Shown: in pieces, positions 2,924 to 10,622 of the stretch
Numbering within the stretch: position 1 is the first letter of the stretch
Layout of the letters: each line of letters opens with the position of its first letter
DNA from: Virgibacillus senegalensis
GTDB taxonomy: Bacteria > Bacillota > Bacilli > Bacillales > Amphibacillaceae
NCBI RefSeq assembly: GCF_000821245.2
Contig: NZ_LN611424.1
Coordinates: 320,732-384,731, forward strand
Length of the DNA stretch: 64,000 bases
Direction: 5' to 3'
Notes under the pieces: generated by a model
Told to the model about the DNA's origin: nothing
What the model saw: only the letters and a program-made list of their open reading frames with translations
The model's database searches: none
Made by a program: the position numbers and the translations under genes

Positions 2924-3475
2924 ATGGTGGAAGTGTTACCATATAACCATACCGCTATCAATCTCGATTATGGCGATCTTGGCCGGATCAATGCAGCGGA
3001 TGAAAATGTCTACCCCGGTACGAACATTACGATGGAACCGGGAGACATCCTCTATTCTGCCAAAGGAATGTCTACTTTTTTAGTAGGACATGTTGGAATG
3101 GTGGGGCATGATCAGCTTATCTATCATTCGCATCCTAAAGGCGGGTTTTATGAGAAATTGCCAGTCTATTTATCACGGCACAAGTTCGGTACTGTATTGA
3201 CCGTTTTCCGTCCGGTGTACGGCGCGTCAGCTGCAGCACAGTGGGTGACAGACAATGTTGGCAGAATCCAAAGATATATCTTTGACCCTCGGTTAAACAC
3301 GATTTCTACAAATTATTGTTCCAAATTTCTATGGCAATCGTTCTGGTACACCGGTATTGGGGACATCACCGGCAGACATAGACACGGTAAACAATGGGCC
3401 TGGATCTATCCTTTCATGATTAAAAAGGCAGAGAATTTAAAACAAATTGCTGTTATGAGATTGGGCAAGAGCTAA
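2924..3475 (+). CDS. YiiX/YebB-like permuted papain (NlpC/P60-type) hydrolase
   Basis: This 183-residue protein looks like a circularly permuted papain-fold cysteine hydrolase. The visible signature is MEPGDILYS followed by GHVGMVG (the catalytic histidine strand), and later a catalytic cysteine in NYCSKFLWQ. Such proteins act on peptide or amide bonds in cell-wall or lipid substrates. There is no signal peptide, so it is probably cytoplasmic or peripheral. It lies 13 bases after the helicase gene and may be cotranscribed with it. GTG codons at 2927 or 2933 are better spaced from AAGAAGGGG than the ATG used here. A second member of the fold is encoded at 25692. Confidence 0.75.
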   Translation: MVEVLPYNHTAINLDYGDLGRINAADENVYPGTNITMEPGDILYSAKGMSTFLVGHVGMVGHDQLIYHSHPKGGFYEKLPVYLSRHKFGTVLTVFRPVYGASAAAQWVTDNVGRIQRYIFDPRLNTISTNYCSKFLWQSFWYTGIGDITGRHRHGKQWAWIYPFMIKKAENLKQIAVMRLGKS

Positions 3476-3553
3476 TTTTCCTTGAGATGGCTGGAATAAA
3501 AACGACAAAGCGGGAATTTTCAAAAAAATCGATAACTTTTTATCGTTTCCTTA

Positions 3554-3582
3554 TTGACAAATGAAAACGACCGTACTATGAT
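3554..3582 (+). promoter_or_regulatory. Sigma-A promoter of the trp operon
   Basis: TTGACA at 3554-3559 and TATGAT at 3577-3582 are separated by exactly 17 bp. Transcription would begin near 3589, just before the first T-box leader. Confidence 0.85.
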
Positions 3583-3589
3583 TGTAAAC

Positions 3590-3866
3590 AATAATTCAAT
3601 GAGCTTTGGCGAAGACGAAGAGTAGTAGCACATACTGCGCGTTATAGAGAGCTGGTGGCAGCTGAAAACCAGTACGTCGGCTGTGTGAATGGACTTCCGA
3701 GCCCCAAACCGAACTTCCCGGAACAGTAGGCTTTGGCGGATTGCCCAACGTTAAAAGGGCAGGTGCAGACTTTGGTCTGTACTGTCAAAGTGGCTGTTTC
3801 TTAAATAGCTAAAAAGGTGGTACCACGGGTTTCCTCGTCCTTTATGGAGAGGAAGCCCGTTTTTTA
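3590..3866 (+). promoter_or_regulatory. Tryptophan T-box riboswitch 1
   Basis: The leader carries the AGAGAG/GGTGG-type Stem I elements and a specifier-loop context GAATGGACTTCCGAG in which the specifier codon is UGG (3690-3692), reading tRNA-Trp. The T-box proper, AGGTGGTACCACG, lies at 3815-3827. It is followed by a terminator (ACGGGTTTCCTC paired with GAGGAAGCCCGT, then T6, ending near 3866). Uncharged tRNA-Trp should stabilise the antiterminator and allow read-through into the second T-box. The antiterminator bulge reads UGGU. Confidence 0.93.
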
Positions 3867-3898
3867 TACGTTCCAGACAATGATATACAAGCTTAAAT

Positions 3899-4176
3899 CG
3901 CTGAGTAAGAAGAGTAAGCTTTTTGACTTCTCAAAGAGAGCCGGGGCTGGTGGAATCCTGGCAGAATAGGAAAGCTGAATGGCCTTACGAGAGTTTTTCT
4001 GAAAGCAGAGTAGGAAGAACCGTCCTTCCCACGTTATAGGGATAGAGTATCGGATGAGGATTTTATTCCATCCCGTACTCGAAAAGCGGAAGGAGAATAT
4101 CCTTCAATAGAGGTGGCACCGCGGCAGAAACCGTCCCCTATAAACACAGATGCTTGTGTTTATAGGGGTTTTTTTT
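3899..4176 (+). promoter_or_regulatory. Tryptophan T-box riboswitch 2
   Basis: A second full T-box follows the first. It has its own Stem I (AGAGAGCCGGGGC), a UGG specifier at 3980-3982 within GAATGGCCTTACGAG, the T-box AGGTGGCACCGCGG at 4111-4124, and a long terminator (CCCCTATAAACACA paired with TGTGTTTATAGGGG) followed by T8. The antiterminator bulge reads UGGC, a perfect complement of the GCCA end expected for tRNA-Trp. trpE begins 39 bases after the terminator. Confidence 0.93.
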
Positions 4177-4214
4177 ATCCATCAAACAACACAAAAACAA
4201 AGGAGCGTGTGAAA

Positions 4215-5627
4215 ATGACAGTGACGATACATGAACCGGTATATAAACAAATGCAATTAAATGGAGACACACTGACCCCGATATCGGTTTTTAAACGGAT
4301 GCAGGGGAAACGTAAATTTCTGTTGGAGAGCCTTTCCGGACAATCCGAAAAAGGACGATATTCATTTCTTGGAGCCAACCCTTATAAAGAAATGATTGGG
4401 GAAGGGAATCAAGTATTCAGCAAACAACCGCTCACAGATGAAGCGACAATCGAAACTGGCAGACCGCTCGAGATTGCCCAACGGCATTTAGGAAATCAAG
4501 AGCTGCCGCTTCCATTTCCGTTTTACGGAGGTGCAGTGGGTTACATCGGTTACGATGCCATCCGGCAATATGAATTTATCGGTGACATAGAGAACGATGA
4601 GATTGCGATGCCTGACATGCATTTATTGTTCTATCAGGATGTCATTGTCTTCGATCACCTTCATGATACGGTTTCGATAGTGGCGATAGATATGACGGGA
4701 GATCGTACCGAACAAGAACTGGGTGATAGATTAGATGAGTTAAGAAAGACAATTTTGACTGGGACAGAAGAAGCTGTTCCTGCCCTGGGATCTGTGGATT
4801 TCGAGCCTACAATCGATAAGCAGGCATTCATGGAAAGGGTGGAGCAAGCTAAACAGCATATTATTGATGGGGACATCTTCCAAGTGGTCCTTTCCCAGCG
4901 AATGAAAGCAAGCTTCGACGCTGATCCATTTACTTTTTACAGACATTTGCGCAGAGCCAATCCATCACCATATATGTTTTATTTGGATTTTGAAGATTAC
5001 ATCGTCCTAGGAGCTTCGCCAGAAAGCCTGATCAAAACCACAGGTGATCAAGTCATCACCAACCCTATTGCTGGAACACGACAGAGAGGGCGGACGGCTG
5101 AAGAGGATTACAGGTTAGCGGAAGAATTGCTGGCTGACGAGAAAGAGCTAGCCGAGCATAAAATGCTGGTTGATTTAAGCAGAAACGACCTTGGAAGGGT
5201 TTGTCAGATCGGATCGATAGAGATACCCAAATATATGACAATAGAACGATACCAGCATGTCATGCATATCGTTTCCGAAGTGCAGGGCACCCTGCTTACA
5301 GGGTACAGCGGGCTGGATATACTGGCTGCAACCCTTCCGGCAGGGACGGTGTCCGGCGCACCAAAGATACGGGCCATGCAAATCATCAATGAACTGGAGA
5401 AGGAAAGGCGAGGGGTTTATGCCGGAGCGGTAGGCTACTTGAATATGAACGGAGATGTTGATATGGCGCTTGCCATCCGGACGATGGTCATCAAAGACAA
5501 AGCAGCTTACGTCCAGGCTGGGGCAGGGATCGTCTATGACTCGGATCCGGCTGCAGAATACGAGGAAACGCTCAATAAAGCAAAATCGCTATTGGAGGTG
5601 AACCAGCATGATTTTATTAATCGATAA
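4215..5627 (+). CDS. trpE: Anthranilate synthase component I
   Basis: TrpE (470 residues) converts chorismate to anthranilate with ammonia supplied by TrpG, the first committed step to tryptophan. The chorismate-binding domain fills the C-terminal half, with IAGTRQRGRT, DLSRNDLGRV, AGTVSGAPKIRAM and the AGAGIVYDSD motif visible. The N-terminal region has an LLESL sequence in the position used for tryptophan feedback binding in the family. The ATG at 4215 is chosen because AAAGGAG precedes it by 9 bases; the frame is open further upstream only through the terminator of T-box 2. The end overlaps trpG by 20 bases, suggesting translational coupling. Confidence 0.97.
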   Translation: MTVTIHEPVYKQMQLNGDTLTPISVFKRMQGKRKFLLESLSGQSEKGRYSFLGANPYKEMIGEGNQVFSKQPLTDEATIETGRPLEIAQRHLGNQELPLPFPFYGGAVGYIGYDAIRQYEFIGDIENDEIAMPDMHLLFYQDVIVFDHLHDTVSIVAIDMTGDRTEQELGDRLDELRKTILTGTEEAVPALGSVDFEPTIDKQAFMERVEQAKQHIIDGDIFQVVLSQRMKASFDADPFTFYRHLRRANPSPYMFYLDFEDYIVLGASPESLIKTTGDQVITNPIAGTRQRGRTAEEDYRLAEELLADEKELAEHKMLVDLSRNDLGRVCQIGSIEIPKYMTIERYQHVMHIVSEVQGTLLTGYSGLDILAATLPAGTVSGAPKIRAMQIINELEKERRGVYAGAVGYLNMNGDVDMALAIRTMVIKDKAAYVQAGAGIVYDSDPAAEYEETLNKAKSLLEVNQHDFINR

Positions 5628-6207
5628 TTATGATTCCTTTACGTATAACTTATTCCAATACATTTCCGAACTTGGTAAAACCGTACAGGTAGTCCGAAAC
5701 AATGCGTTGCAAATAGAAGATATCCAGAGGTTGAATCCGGAAGCGATCGTGTTGTCCCCGGGACCTGGTACTCCCCGTGATGCAGGCATCTGTATCGAAA
5801 CGGTGAAGAGCTTTGCTGGGAAAATACCGATACTTGGCATCTGCCTGGGACATCAGGCGATAGGGGAGGCATTCGGGGGTTCGATTGTTCATGCCGGGAC
5901 AGTCATGCACGGCAAAACATCTGTCCTTTCTCATACAGGCTCACGGCTATTTACAGGCTCCCCAGACAAGTTGGAAGTGATGCGTTATCATTCACTGGTC
6001 GTTGATAAGACATCTTTTCCAGCGTGCCTGGACATAACTGCAACTGCGGAAGATGACGGGGAAATCATGGCCTTCCAGCATCGTTCCTTACCAGTTTACG
6101 GACTGCAATTTCATCCTGAATCGATCGGCACAGAATCCGGAAAGGCGATACTTCGGAATTTCTTTTCCATAATACGTAAGGAGGATAAATATGAAACGGT
6201 ATCTTGA
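5608..6207 (+). CDS. trpG: Anthranilate synthase glutamine amidotransferase (component II)
   Basis: This 199-residue class I glutamine amidotransferase releases ammonia from glutamine for TrpE. The nucleophile is Cys79 in GICLGHQ, and the catalytic His and Glu lie in FHPESIGTESG. The oxyanion region LSPGPGTP is intact. In B. subtilis the amidotransferase is encoded in the folate operon and shared with folate synthesis; here it is inside trp, so it is probably dedicated to tryptophan, although sharing with PabB cannot be excluded. It overlaps trpE by 20 bases and trpD by 17. Confidence 0.96.
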   Translation: MILLIDNYDSFTYNLFQYISELGKTVQVVRNNALQIEDIQRLNPEAIVLSPGPGTPRDAGICIETVKSFAGKIPILGICLGHQAIGEAFGGSIVHAGTVMHGKTSVLSHTGSRLFTGSPDKLEVMRYHSLVVDKTSFPACLDITATAEDDGEIMAFQHRSLPVYGLQFHPESIGTESGKAILRNFFSIIRKEDKYETVS

Positions 6208-7219
6208 TAAATTGATTCAACAGGAAGCGCTGAGCCAGGAGGAAATGGAACAGGCTGCACGGGAAATGTTCCTGGAAAGCACATCCGAGACGGAAATCGG
6301 TGCATTTTTGACAGCGTTGAAAATCAAGGGGGAGCAGGCAGGAGAAATAGCCGGACTAGTCACTGTCATTCGTGAAAAATCGATTGCGGTAACCGATGGA
6401 ATCAATGGCGTGATGGATAATTGCGGAACAGGGGGAGATGGCTCGAGGAGTTTTAATATCAGCACAACTTCCGCCTTTGTCATTGCCGGAGCGGGTATTC
6501 CTGTCGCCAAGCATGGGAATCGCAGTGTTTCCAGCAAAACCGGAAGTGCAGATGTGCTCGAGGAGCTGGGAGTCTCGCTTGATTTGAGCAAACAGCAAAT
6601 GCAGGAGATACTCGAAGAAAATGGCATTGCGTTCTTGTTTGCACCGCATGTGCATCCGTCTTTAAAGAAAATCATGCATGTTCGGAAAAACTTGCGGATA
6701 CCGACAATTTTCAATTTGATCGGACCTTTGACAAACCCGGTGGCGCTTGAAACCCAGCTTCTCGGTATTTACAGCCGGGAAATGCTCGAAATGATGGCGT
6801 CTGCGCTACATCGTCTGGGCAGAAAACGCGCCTTGGTAGTCAACGGAGCGGGTTATATGGATGAAGCTTCACTGGCTGGTGAAAACCATTTGGTCTTAAT
6901 GGAAAAAGGAGAGCTGATTCCGTTCACTTTACATCCGGAGGAAGTAGGGCTGCCAGTCTATCCCAATGCAGATATTCGGGGAGGAGACGCCAAGGCAAAT
7001 GCAGATATTCTCTATCGTGTACTAAGAGGAGAACAAGGCGCTTATCGGGACACGGTCGTTTTCAATGCCGGGCTGGCGATCTTGGCCAACGGCAAAGCTT
7101 CTACCGTCCAGGAAGGCGTAGCCATGGCTCAGGAAAGTATAGACTCGGGAGCAGCTTTGACCAAGCTGGAGAAGTTGATTGATTACAGTAATAGAGTGAA
7201 ACAAGAGGTGGTCGGCTGA
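6191..7219 (+). CDS. trpD: Anthranilate phosphoribosyltransferase
   Basis: TrpD (342 residues) transfers the phosphoribosyl group of PRPP to anthranilate. The glycine-rich PRPP site DNCGTGGDGSRSFN and the KHGNRSVSSKTGSADVLE motif are complete, as is the NLIGPLTNP segment. Its length is normal for the family. AGGAGG precedes the ATG, which lies inside the end of trpG. Its stop codon shares bases with the trpC start (TGATG). Confidence 0.97.
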   Translation: MKRYLDKLIQQEALSQEEMEQAAREMFLESTSETEIGAFLTALKIKGEQAGEIAGLVTVIREKSIAVTDGINGVMDNCGTGGDGSRSFNISTTSAFVIAGAGIPVAKHGNRSVSSKTGSADVLEELGVSLDLSKQQMQEILEENGIAFLFAPHVHPSLKKIMHVRKNLRIPTIFNLIGPLTNPVALETQLLGIYSREMLEMMASALHRLGRKRALVVNGAGYMDEASLAGENHLVLMEKGELIPFTLHPEEVGLPVYPNADIRGGDAKANADILYRVLRGEQGAYRDTVVFNAGLAILANGKASTVQEGVAMAQESIDSGAALTKLEKLIDYSNRVKQEVVG

Positions 7220-7995
7220 TGACGATTTTAGATAAAATTCTGGCAGAAAAAACAAAAGAAGTTGCCCGGTTAAAACATAACTATAACCCTGCCCCACATG
7301 CATCGGTGACAGCGAAACGTTCCTTATATGAACGCTTCATCCATGCAGATACTATCAGCATTATCGCAGAGATCAAACGCGCATCCCCATCCAAAGGGGT
7401 CATCAACCCGGACGTCAACCCTGCGGAACAGGCCAGGGATTATGCCGATAATGGAGCAGGAGCCATTTCGATCTTGACCGATCAACCATTTTTCCAGGGC
7501 ACCATGCTTGATTTGGAAACAGTCCGGAAAACGGTCGATGTACCTATTTTGAATAAGGACTTTATCATTGATGAAATTCAGATCGACCGGGCAAAAGACT
7601 ATGGAGCTGATGTGGTTTTACTGATTGCTGCGGCTCTTCCGCAAGAGCGCATGCAAGCATTATATCAGTATGCGAAGGCGAAAGATCTTGATGTCCTGCT
7701 GGAAGTACATGATGAAGCAGAATTAGAAGCTGCAGTGAACATTGGAGCGGAAATCATTGGTATCAATAATCGGAATTTAAAAACATTCGAAGTTGATTTA
7801 GCCGTTACGAAAAAGCTTGCTTCTCAAATAACGGATCCCGAAACGCTGATTATTAGCGAAAGTGGATTTAGGAACAGGAACGATGTAGAAAATGTTCGCC
7901 AGTACGGAGTGAGAGGTATTTTGGTTGGGGAAACGATGATGCGTTCCGGGGACTTATCGCAAACGTTTAAAGACTTGCGGGTGCCGCAGTTGTAG
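7219..7995 (+). CDS. trpC: Indole-3-glycerol-phosphate synthase
   Basis: TrpC (258 residues) closes the indole ring of 1-(2-carboxyphenylamino)-1-deoxyribulose 5-phosphate. It is a TIM barrel with the catalytic lysine in IAEIKRASPSKG, the NKDFIID strand, the INNRNLKTF motif and the phosphate-binding ISESG. The start codon overlaps the trpD stop. The next gene, trpF, follows after 12 bases. Confidence 0.97.
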   Translation: MTILDKILAEKTKEVARLKHNYNPAPHASVTAKRSLYERFIHADTISIIAEIKRASPSKGVINPDVNPAEQARDYADNGAGAISILTDQPFFQGTMLDLETVRKTVDVPILNKDFIIDEIQIDRAKDYGADVVLLIAAALPQERMQALYQYAKAKDLDVLLEVHDEAELEAAVNIGAEIIGINNRNLKTFEVDLAVTKKLASQITDPETLIISESGFRNRNDVENVRQYGVRGILVGETMMRSGDLSQTFKDLRVPQL

Positions 7996-8007
7996 GAGGA
8001 TGAAGAC

Positions 8008-8625
8008 ATGCAAGTGAAGATATGCGGTATTACGACAATCAAGACGGCCCAAGCAGCGGTGGATGCAGGTGCCGACTTTATCGGATTTGTTTTTGCTGCT
8101 AGTAAGCGGCGGGTTAGTAAGCAGCAGGCACGTGCCATTGCAGAGATAATCCCTCCAAAAGTGAAGAAGGTCGGTGTATTTGTCAATGAAACGACGGAAG
8201 TGATCGAAGAGATTGCCGAACACGTTGGCCTTGATTACGTTCAACTTCACGGCGATGAAACGCCGGAACTGGTCGAAAGCTTGAAAATCCCCGTAATCAA
8301 GGCATTTCAAATTACCAGTAAAGGTGATTTGACAAAGCTGGACCATTATAAATGTGATTATTTTTTGCTCGACAGTCCTGCCGGAAAATACCGTGGCGGC
8401 AACGGGGAGGTATTCGACTGGTCCCTAACCCGGAAACTGCCGGCACTGAACGGAAAGCTGATTCTGGCTGGCGGACTTCATGCAGATAACGTAAGCGAAG
8501 CGATAGCAGAGGTCTCCCCGGAAGCGGTAGATGTATCGAGCGGAGTCGAGACAGATGGCAGTAAAGATGAAGCGAAGATTTATGCATTTATTCAGGCGGC
8601 AAAAAGTACTAGAGAGGAAGGGTAA
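8008..8625 (+). CDS. trpF: Phosphoribosylanthranilate isomerase
   Basis: TrpF (205 residues) performs the Amadori rearrangement of phosphoribosylanthranilate before the TrpC step. The catalytic cysteine is in KICGITTI near the N-terminus, and [18 protein letters not shown] and [10 protein letters not shown] are the conserved strands and phosphate-binding loop. A GGAGGATG ribosome binding site lies just upstream. It ends one base before the trpB start codon. Confidence 0.96.
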
Positions 8626-8626
8626 C

Positions 8627-9832
8627 ATGGAAACTTATCAACAACCCGATGTCCAGGGGCACTTTGGCAATTTTGGCGGACGATTCGTCCCCGAAACGTT
8701 GATGCCGGCGGTGTTGGAGCTGGAAAAAGCGTATGAAGAAGCAATGGCCGATCCGGAATTTATCGATCAAGTAGATTATTATTTTAAACAGTATATCGGC
8801 AGGGAAACCCCTTTGTATTATGCTGAAAATTTTTCCAACCAGCTTGGAGGACCAAAAATTTATTTGAAACGGGAGGATCTTAATCACACCGGTGCCCACA
8901 AGATTAACAATGCGATCGGGCAGGCTCTTTTGACCCAGCGGATGGGCAAGAAAAAAGTGGTAGCAGAAACCGGTGCCGGCCAGCATGGCGTGGCAACTGC
9001 AACTGTCTGTGCACTGCTTGGACTAGAATGCGTCATTTTTATGGGGAAAGAGGATATTCGCCGGCAAAAACTGAATGTGTTTCGGATGGAATTGCTTGGA
9101 GCGCGTGTGGAAAGCGTCGAGCAGGGCAGCGGTACGTTGAAGGATGCTGTAAACGAAGCGCTGCGTTACTGGGTGACAAACGTAGAAGATACCCATTATA
9201 TTATCGGTTCTGTCGTCGGTCCGCATCCATTTCCGAAAATCGTCAGGGACTTTCAAAGTGTGATTGGAATTGAGACACGTAAACAAATCATGGAACAGGA
9301 AGGCAGGCTCCCAGAAGCGGTAATAGCTTGTATCGGCGGCGGGAGTAACTCGATGGGGATGTTTTATCCGTTTGTCGAGGATGAACAAGTGGCGCTTCAT
9401 GGCGTGGAAGCAGGCGGTTCAGGTATTGAAACCGGCAAGCATGCCGCTACGCTGACGGACGGGAAAGCCGGTATTCTTCATGGCACACTTAGCTATTTGC
9501 TGCAGGATGAAAACGGCCAGGTAACGGAAGCACATTCCATATCAGCGGGACTGGATTATCCGGGAATAGGCCCGGAGCATAGTCACTTAAAAGAAACAGG
9601 AAGGGTGCAATACGATTCCATCACTGATGAAGAAGCACTGGATGCACTACAGCTTTTGACGAAGACGGAGGGAATCATGCCAGCATTGGAGAGTGCCCAT
9701 GCAGTTGCTTACAGCATGAAGCTGGCCAAGACAATGGATGCCTCGCAGACTATCGTGGTTTGTTTATCCGGCCGCGGGGATAAGGATGTAGATACCGTGA
9801 GATCAGCGTTTGGAGGGAGTTCATATGAGTAA
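8627..9832 (+). CDS. trpB: Tryptophan synthase beta subunit
   Basis: TrpB (401 residues) is the PLP enzyme that joins indole and serine. The PLP lysine lies in the [10 protein letters not shown] motif, the phosphate-binding loop is GGGSNS, and RGDKDVDTV closes the protein. It is the standard TrpB1 form. The ATG at 8627 is chosen because AGAGGAAGG precedes it. The end overlaps the trpA start by 8 bases, consistent with equal production of the alpha-beta complex. Confidence 0.97.
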
Positions 9833-10622
9833 ACAGTACATGCAACAAGCATTCCAGAAGGTTCTCGACCGGGGAGACAAAGCGTTCGTACCTTATATTA
9901 TGGCCGGGGATGGCGGACTGGATAGTTTGGAAGAGAAGGTTCGCTTTTTAGAAGAAAGCGGGGCAACTGTTTTGGAGCTCGGCGTTCCATTTTCGGATCC
10001 TGTAGCAGATGGACCGACCATACAGGAGGCAGGTATTCGGGCGCTTAAGCATGGTGTCAGCCTTCGTGCGATTTTAGAAAAACTGGAACAATTCAAGGAA
10101 TCCCGTTCGATTCCGATTGTACTTATGACCTATCTGAATCCGATTTATGCCTATGGTGTGGAGGCATTTGCTGAAGCATGCCGGACTTCCGGTGTCAGCG
10201 GATTAATCATACCGGATCTGCCGCTTGAAGAGGAAAACATGGTAACACGGCAACTGCAGGCAAACAATATTGCCTTGATCCGGTTGGCTTCTTTAACCAG
10301 TCCTCCGGAGCGTTTAAAGGAACTGGCGAAACGGACGGAAGGATTCTTGTATGCGGTAACGGTAACCGGTACAACGGGAGCGAGGTCGGCATTCCAGGAT
10401 AATTTACAGGAACATTTGGCGTCGTTGAAGAATATTTGCCAAGCCCCGGTACTGGCCGGTTTTGGCGTTTCGACTCCGGATCATGTCAAACAATTGAGTG
10501 CCAACTGTGATGGAGTCGTGGTGGGAAGTAAAATCGTCGACGCCTTACATCAAAACAATCGTGAGGAGATTAAAAAGCTGATTGCTGCAGCAAGCTCAAA
10601 AGAGCAGGCAACGGCAGAGTAA
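9825..10622 (+). CDS. trpA: Tryptophan synthase alpha subunit
   Basis: TrpA (265 residues) cleaves indole-3-glycerol phosphate and passes indole to TrpB. The TIM barrel shows the catalytic Glu in [16 protein letters not shown], the Asp in [11 protein letters not shown], and the GFGVSTP phosphate loop. The ATG at 9825 follows GGAGGG; a GTG/ATG further upstream lies within trpB. No terminator follows directly; the first good hairpin on this strand is the bidirectional one at 11227-11277, so the trp mRNA may carry about 600 bases of repeats at its 3' end. Confidence 0.96.

Follow-up and report, generated by a model that had tools for sequence, protein, structure and literature searches.

The window analysed here is a stretch of 64,000 nt of Virgibacillus senegalensis (GCF_000821245.2, NZ_LN611424.1, positions 320,732–384,731, forward strand), and coordinates below refer to it. 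The plus strand carries a trp operon in the order trpEGDCFBA (4215–10622), downstream of two T-box riboswitches. trpE begins with an ATG at 4215 and extends to 5627 (TIGR00564, 613.9 bits, cut-off 517.7), followed at 5608–10622 (+) by trpG, trpD, trpC, trpF, trpB and trpA, in this order, each of which passes the curated NCBIfam cut-off of one or more families bearing its name. A 183-aa ORF (2924–3475, +) lies immediately upstream of the trp leader and has no NCBIfam match at E 1e-10. Elsewhere in the window, a SAM riboswitch (RF00162, 94.2 bits) occupies 47150–47040 on the minus strand. A TRAP-controlled trp operon finds no support here: a search of the genome (99.78% complete) with PF02081 gave no match for the TRAP gene mtrB; the B. 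subtilis control was positive.

The trp leader contains two contiguous, complete T-boxes before trpE, which is the arrangement of a tandem trp T-box. The first (T1, Stem I to T-box sequence, 3603–3845, +) matches RF00230 with 118.1 bits (E 1.6e-25) and the second (T2, 3892–4141, +) with 122.5 bits (E 1.2e-26); both matches span model positions 1–219 and exceed the gathering score of 93. Sequence and RF00230 alignment place a UGG specifier at 3690–3692 (+) in T1 and at 3980–3982 (+) in T2, in agreement with the trp genes downstream. From sequence and folding, the T1 antiterminator is predicted at 3813–3843 (+), with A1 strands AAAGG/CCUUU and an A2 element (3825–3838) closed by A3825-U3838, and the T2 antiterminator at 4108–4140 (+), with A1 strands UAGAGG/CCCCUA containing an A4111-C4137 mismatch and A2 closed by G4121·U4134. 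The predicted intrinsic terminators lie at 3825–3865 (+; hairpin 3825–3860, six T) for T1 and at 4135–4176 (+; hairpin 4135–4168, eight T; −22.3 kcal/mol, z −5.96) for T2. Their segments have similar energies, −25.4 kcal/mol for T1 versus −25.8 kcal/mol for T2, the latter segment taking in the A2 hairpin. A simple terminator scan of the plus strand listed only the T2 terminator, and the T1 hairpin comes from folding. Antiterminator and terminator strands overlap in both T-boxes, giving mutually exclusive predicted structures. The covariance matches and folding thus bear out the initial annotation, which had described two complete tryptophan T-boxes with UGG specifiers and their own terminators before trpE. 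The bulges are also as it had read them, UGGU (3818–3821, +) in T1 and UGGC (4114–4117, +) in T2, both able to pair with the NCCA end of the host tRNA.

T1 and T2 are identical at 162 of 228 aligned bases. A promoter-like site upstream of T1 (TTGACA-17-TATGAT, 3554–3582, +) agrees with the consensus at 11 of 12 bases. It was the one site found in a plus-strand scan of 3400–4300, which gave none between T1 and T2; this site count is at chance level (shuffles average 1.7). The genome has 22 T-box matches at E ≤0.001, 15 of them above the cut-off, and includes a second tandem pair (loci L017 and L022, G000:C7:1244629-1245138, −), followed by an ORF that is presumably a threonyl-tRNA synthetase. 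Its two members, unlike those of the trp pair, agree in the bulge (UGGA) and in having A at the base of A2.

A single tRNA-Trp gene was found in the genome (59 tRNA matches; ARAGORN; one genome-wide pattern match). Its 3′ end, CCCCT-G-CCA (CCCCUGCCA), has a G discriminator, and the A73 that the initial annotation had named as a refutation of its proposal is absent. From G73 it follows, as that annotation had argued, that bulge C pairs in Watson-Crick fashion and bulge U by wobble: the T2 bulge is predicted to form four Watson-Crick pairs with GCCA, and the T1 bulge three and a G:U wobble. Nearest-neighbour energies of the four-pair contacts alone are 1.4 kcal/mol apart, or about 9.7-fold with all else equal. 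Among 120 genomes of the window's family, a G73 pattern was found in 67, a non-G pattern in 0 and neither in 53. U is the usual bulge letter of T-boxes for A73 tRNAs.

For comparison, 178 trpE leaders were gathered, 101 from the window's family and 77 from other families of the order, chosen because their TrpE closely resembles that of the window (thresholds E 1e-110 for the family and 1e-125 for the order). Genomes without such a TrpE match (17 of 120 in the family, 163 of 249 in the order) are outside the sample, and the family matches G091 and G104 are outside the 101. The counted set comprises the 172 leaders with two standard cores, window included, from 15 families and 68 genera. The motif filter required A or G, then any letter, then GGUGG, and excluded AAC second bulges; of the six leaders dropped, two were ended by a contig end, one had a changed second core and three had AAC in the second bulge. 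Seven further Bacillales loci (L091–L097) are also two-cored and were kept outside the counts, at least two being apparent duplicates of counted genomes. The covariance model gave two RF00230 matches in 58 of the 60 trpE leaders scanned (18/20, 20/20 and 20/20), and T-boxes in the remaining leaders were called by motif and specifier alone. The UGG specifier was found in all 172 first elements and in 166 of the 172 second ones. Single T-boxes were taken from the best 30 of 59 trpS matches in the family, 28 of which have a T-box core. No T-box above the gathering score was found at nine TrpE-like loci of greater distance from the window. At one locus (L098, Enterococcus sp.), two T-box-like cores just 96 bases apart precede a TrpE-like match, perhaps a partial tandem.

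The bulge letter was U or C in all 344 elements. First and second letters were U/C in 105 leaders, C/C in 42, C/U in 18 and U/U in 7; within the window's family (n = 96) the counts were U/C 76, C/U 8, C/C 8 and U/U 4, and all five members of the window's genus are U/C. With 76 of 96 family leaders alike, the difference is no chance feature of this one genome; the U/C order prevails in the family without being obligatory. U occurs in 112 of 172 first elements, 25 of 172 second elements and 1 of 28 trpS T-boxes (C in 27). For tRNA-Trp, then, C is the common letter here, and U is found chiefly in the first trp element, which holds 112 of the 137 U among the 344 pooled elements (40%). Genus majorities were 43 U/C versus 9 C/U (sign test p 2e-6, uncorrected for the tree).

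The reversed order, C then U, was observed in family f1 (genera g3, g8, g9, g43 and g49) and in other families (g23, g118, g67 and single members of g72 and g107). G73 was present in every reversed lineage checked. In 30 further chosen genomes, reversed and U/U lineages included, tRNA-Trp was found in 27 and had a G discriminator in all 27; on these grounds a discriminator change behind the reversed lineages was rejected. Eight of the 172 leaders, from a few lineages, depart from ACC in the first bulge (AUA in L061, L062, L195, L206 and L207; AUC in L263, L271 and L307), and all eight carry U in the second bulge. On a leader tree built with the core columns removed, a minimum of 18 letter changes is needed for the first element and of 10 for the second, and independent-pair tests on this tree found no coupling between the two letters. 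The scarcity of U/U leaders raised a compensating swap, in which one U and one C are kept in either order; it was rejected, with 8 independent pairs, partner change almost absent and a median p of 1.

We give roughly even chances to the reading that the pyrimidines U and C serve almost equally well opposite G73, the first-element U being a product of drift or history. The restriction to these two letters and their repeated change on the leader tree are consistent with it, as is the report in TBDB that 46% of Trp T-boxes with G73 tRNAs carry U, described there as an exception (PMC7778990, available part). The strong bias between first, second and trpS elements over 68 genera argues against it, as do the five uniform members of the window's genus.

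The bulge is one of several steady differences between first and second elements. The 5′ strand of A1 is AAGG in all 172 first elements and GNGG in 169 of 172 second elements. At the base of A2, first elements have A-U (152) or G·U (20), and second elements have G·U (148), A-U (13), G-C (9) or G-A (2). An A at this place is found in 6 of the 22 T-boxes of the window's genome, and so is no oddity. The A-U pair of the first element might nonetheless matter, since G·U at the A2 base has been named the chief barrier to 3′-aminoacyl-tRNA, acting as the steric sensor of the canonical transcriptional T-box (PMC7583486, available part). Terminator layout was judged by the start of the 5′ arm in 167 of the 172 leaders: in first elements the arm starts 9–13 bases before the A2 3′ closing base, inside A2 (153/167), and in second elements from 2 bases before to 3 after it, at A1 (144/167). 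A strict three-class layout label was a poor measure and was set aside, because "other" took up 161 of the 167 first elements and 108 of the 167 second ones. The base after the specifier differs weakly (A in 121/172 first versus 108/166 second elements). A conserved A1 mismatch as a general feature of the second element was likewise rejected: GAGG/CCUC is fully paired in most, and the A-C mismatch seen in T2 occurs in 13 leaders.

Folding energies were obtained for the same number of leaders, 167 of 172; they are local, leave out tRNA and Stem III, and take in the A2 hairpin in the second segment. So defined, the family median for the terminator is −20.2 kcal/mol in first versus −24.2 kcal/mol in second elements, and for the antiterminator −4.9 versus −7.2 kcal/mol (n = 95 in each case, genomes not being independent). 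In 58 of 95 and 52 of 72 leaders the gap between antiterminator and terminator is greater for the second element, so the trend is not uniform. Taken together, the two elements are genuinely unequal, and this conserved inequality extends beyond the bulge; any functional meaning is conjectural.

A quick element tree was built from 68 first, 68 second and 12 trpS elements, with one pair per genus. The position labels need two changes in all, the minimum possible; second elements form one group (support 87), trpS elements form one group, and first elements account for two changes. Support is moderate, 77 of 145 inner branches being weak. Because the labels separate with only two changes, the duplication would predate the sampled order and the copies would have escaped homogenisation. 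T1 and T2 thus appear, on this tree, to be separately inherited, order-wide paralogues and no recent copies.

These data are best accounted for, in our view with high probability, by a trp leader in which two transcriptional T-boxes in series, specialised paralogues of each other, form an AND gate for one and the same ligand. The anatomy, G73, conservation and separate lineages in this explanation are shown by sequence. RNA polymerase starting from one upstream promoter would meet two attenuators in turn. Uncharged tRNA-Trp (G73) would stabilise the first antiterminator and so allow passage of the T1 terminator, and passage of the T2 terminator would need a further uncharged tRNA-Trp bound by the second T-box. 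In the first gate, bulge U (by wobble) or C would face G73, A-U would close A2 and a weaker terminator would invade A2; the second gate would mostly have bulge C, with a G·U pair and a stronger terminator that competes with A1 only. From these features we infer the AND gating, the binding of two tRNAs, a benefit lying in low leak more than in steepness, and different thresholds set by the differences between elements.

The initial annotation had ascribed a clearly steeper response to the tandem arrangement. In a model of two independent, non-cooperative gates, the 10–90% span fell from 81-fold to 40-fold with n_H of just 1.19, and that claim is not borne out. It also pulls against the unequal sensitivity proposed alongside it, since tenfold-unequal gates gave a span of 55-fold and n_H of 1.10. 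A leak of 5% per gate became 0.25% for two (illustrative numbers), and leak reduction is likely the larger gain in the model. Non-equilibrium effects or cooperativity could alter this outcome.

A tuned bulge is a less probable reading, and a tentative one: T1, with its G:U contact, would be less sensitive and set a threshold, and T2 would act as a more sensitive follow-up gate. The concentration of U in first elements relative to second and trpS elements, the genus majorities and the difference in contact energy agree with such tuning. The C/C and reversed leaders and the absence of tree-corrected coupling count against it, as does the lower strength of first terminators in the family, which would act in the opposite direction. 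Since A1 and the A2 base differ as well, the bulge alone cannot be read as a sensitivity setting. What stands of the deliberate difference in sensitivity suggested initially is that U then C recurs in most family leaders; the C/C, reversed and U/U leaders and the uncoupled letters do not fit it, and it is possible at most. It is very improbable that a single element is of consequence, the other being a duplicate in decay, as the altered first-bulge ACC and the six leaders dropped for want of two standard cores (two of them ended by a contig end) might suggest, given the UGG specifiers kept in both positions, the strong covariance matches and the terminators in both elements.

Within the AND gate of two paralogues, a stronger version of specialisation is conceivable and, to us, rather improbable. 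The two trp T-boxes might be anciently specialised, non-interchangeable modules, each sensing something else about the tRNA-Trp pool, such as total occupancy in one case and strict charging in the other. The first module would have the wobble contact, A-U in place of the G·U sieve and an A2-invading terminator, and the second the perfect contact, the G·U sieve and an A1-only terminator; the G:U exception of Trp T-boxes would then be a property of the first module. If the elements are truly specialised, the trp pair amounts to an experiment already set up by nature, in which the tRNA and the transcript are the same and a few defined letters and the terminator layout differ.

Tandem T-boxes of Bacillota trp operons are reportedly described by Gutierrez-Preciado (2005, 2009) and Vitreschak (2008). 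A literature search for an asymmetry between first and second trp T-boxes found no description; these works and Grundy (1994) were beyond its reach. The tandem arrangement itself is ordinary for Bacillota, and the initial annotation had called it known in Firmicutes. One survey finds tandem T-boxes upstream of trpE more often than any other contiguous riboswitch arrangement in biosynthesis, and 99% of its trpE leaders with several T-boxes are pairs (PMC12452182, available part); the same pair precedes the trp operon of B. methanolicus (PMC4342826, available part). For tandem T-boxes of branched-chain operons, the stated view is that two uncharged tRNAs are required (PMC12452182), and PMC7583486 counts the way in which tandem T-boxes act among the open questions.

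The leader described here shares with the Bacillota tandems the two contiguous complete T-boxes before trpE; position-specific signatures in the bulge, A2 base, A1 and terminator go unmentioned in the available part of PMC12452182. What the present analysis adds is that, as far as the compared sequences indicate, first and second trp elements form separate lineages with steady signatures. The second element resembles the canonical T-box with G·U at the A2 base (available part of PMC7583486), whereas the first mostly has A-U instead. T1 makes the same wobble contact as the TBDB Trp T-boxes with UGGU and G73, for which the available part of PMC7778990 gives one pooled share of U; here U falls largely in first elements and scarcely at all in trpS. 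First-element U may thus explain the pooled figure and, if the elements are specialised, the G:U exception of Trp T-boxes could be traced to the first element.
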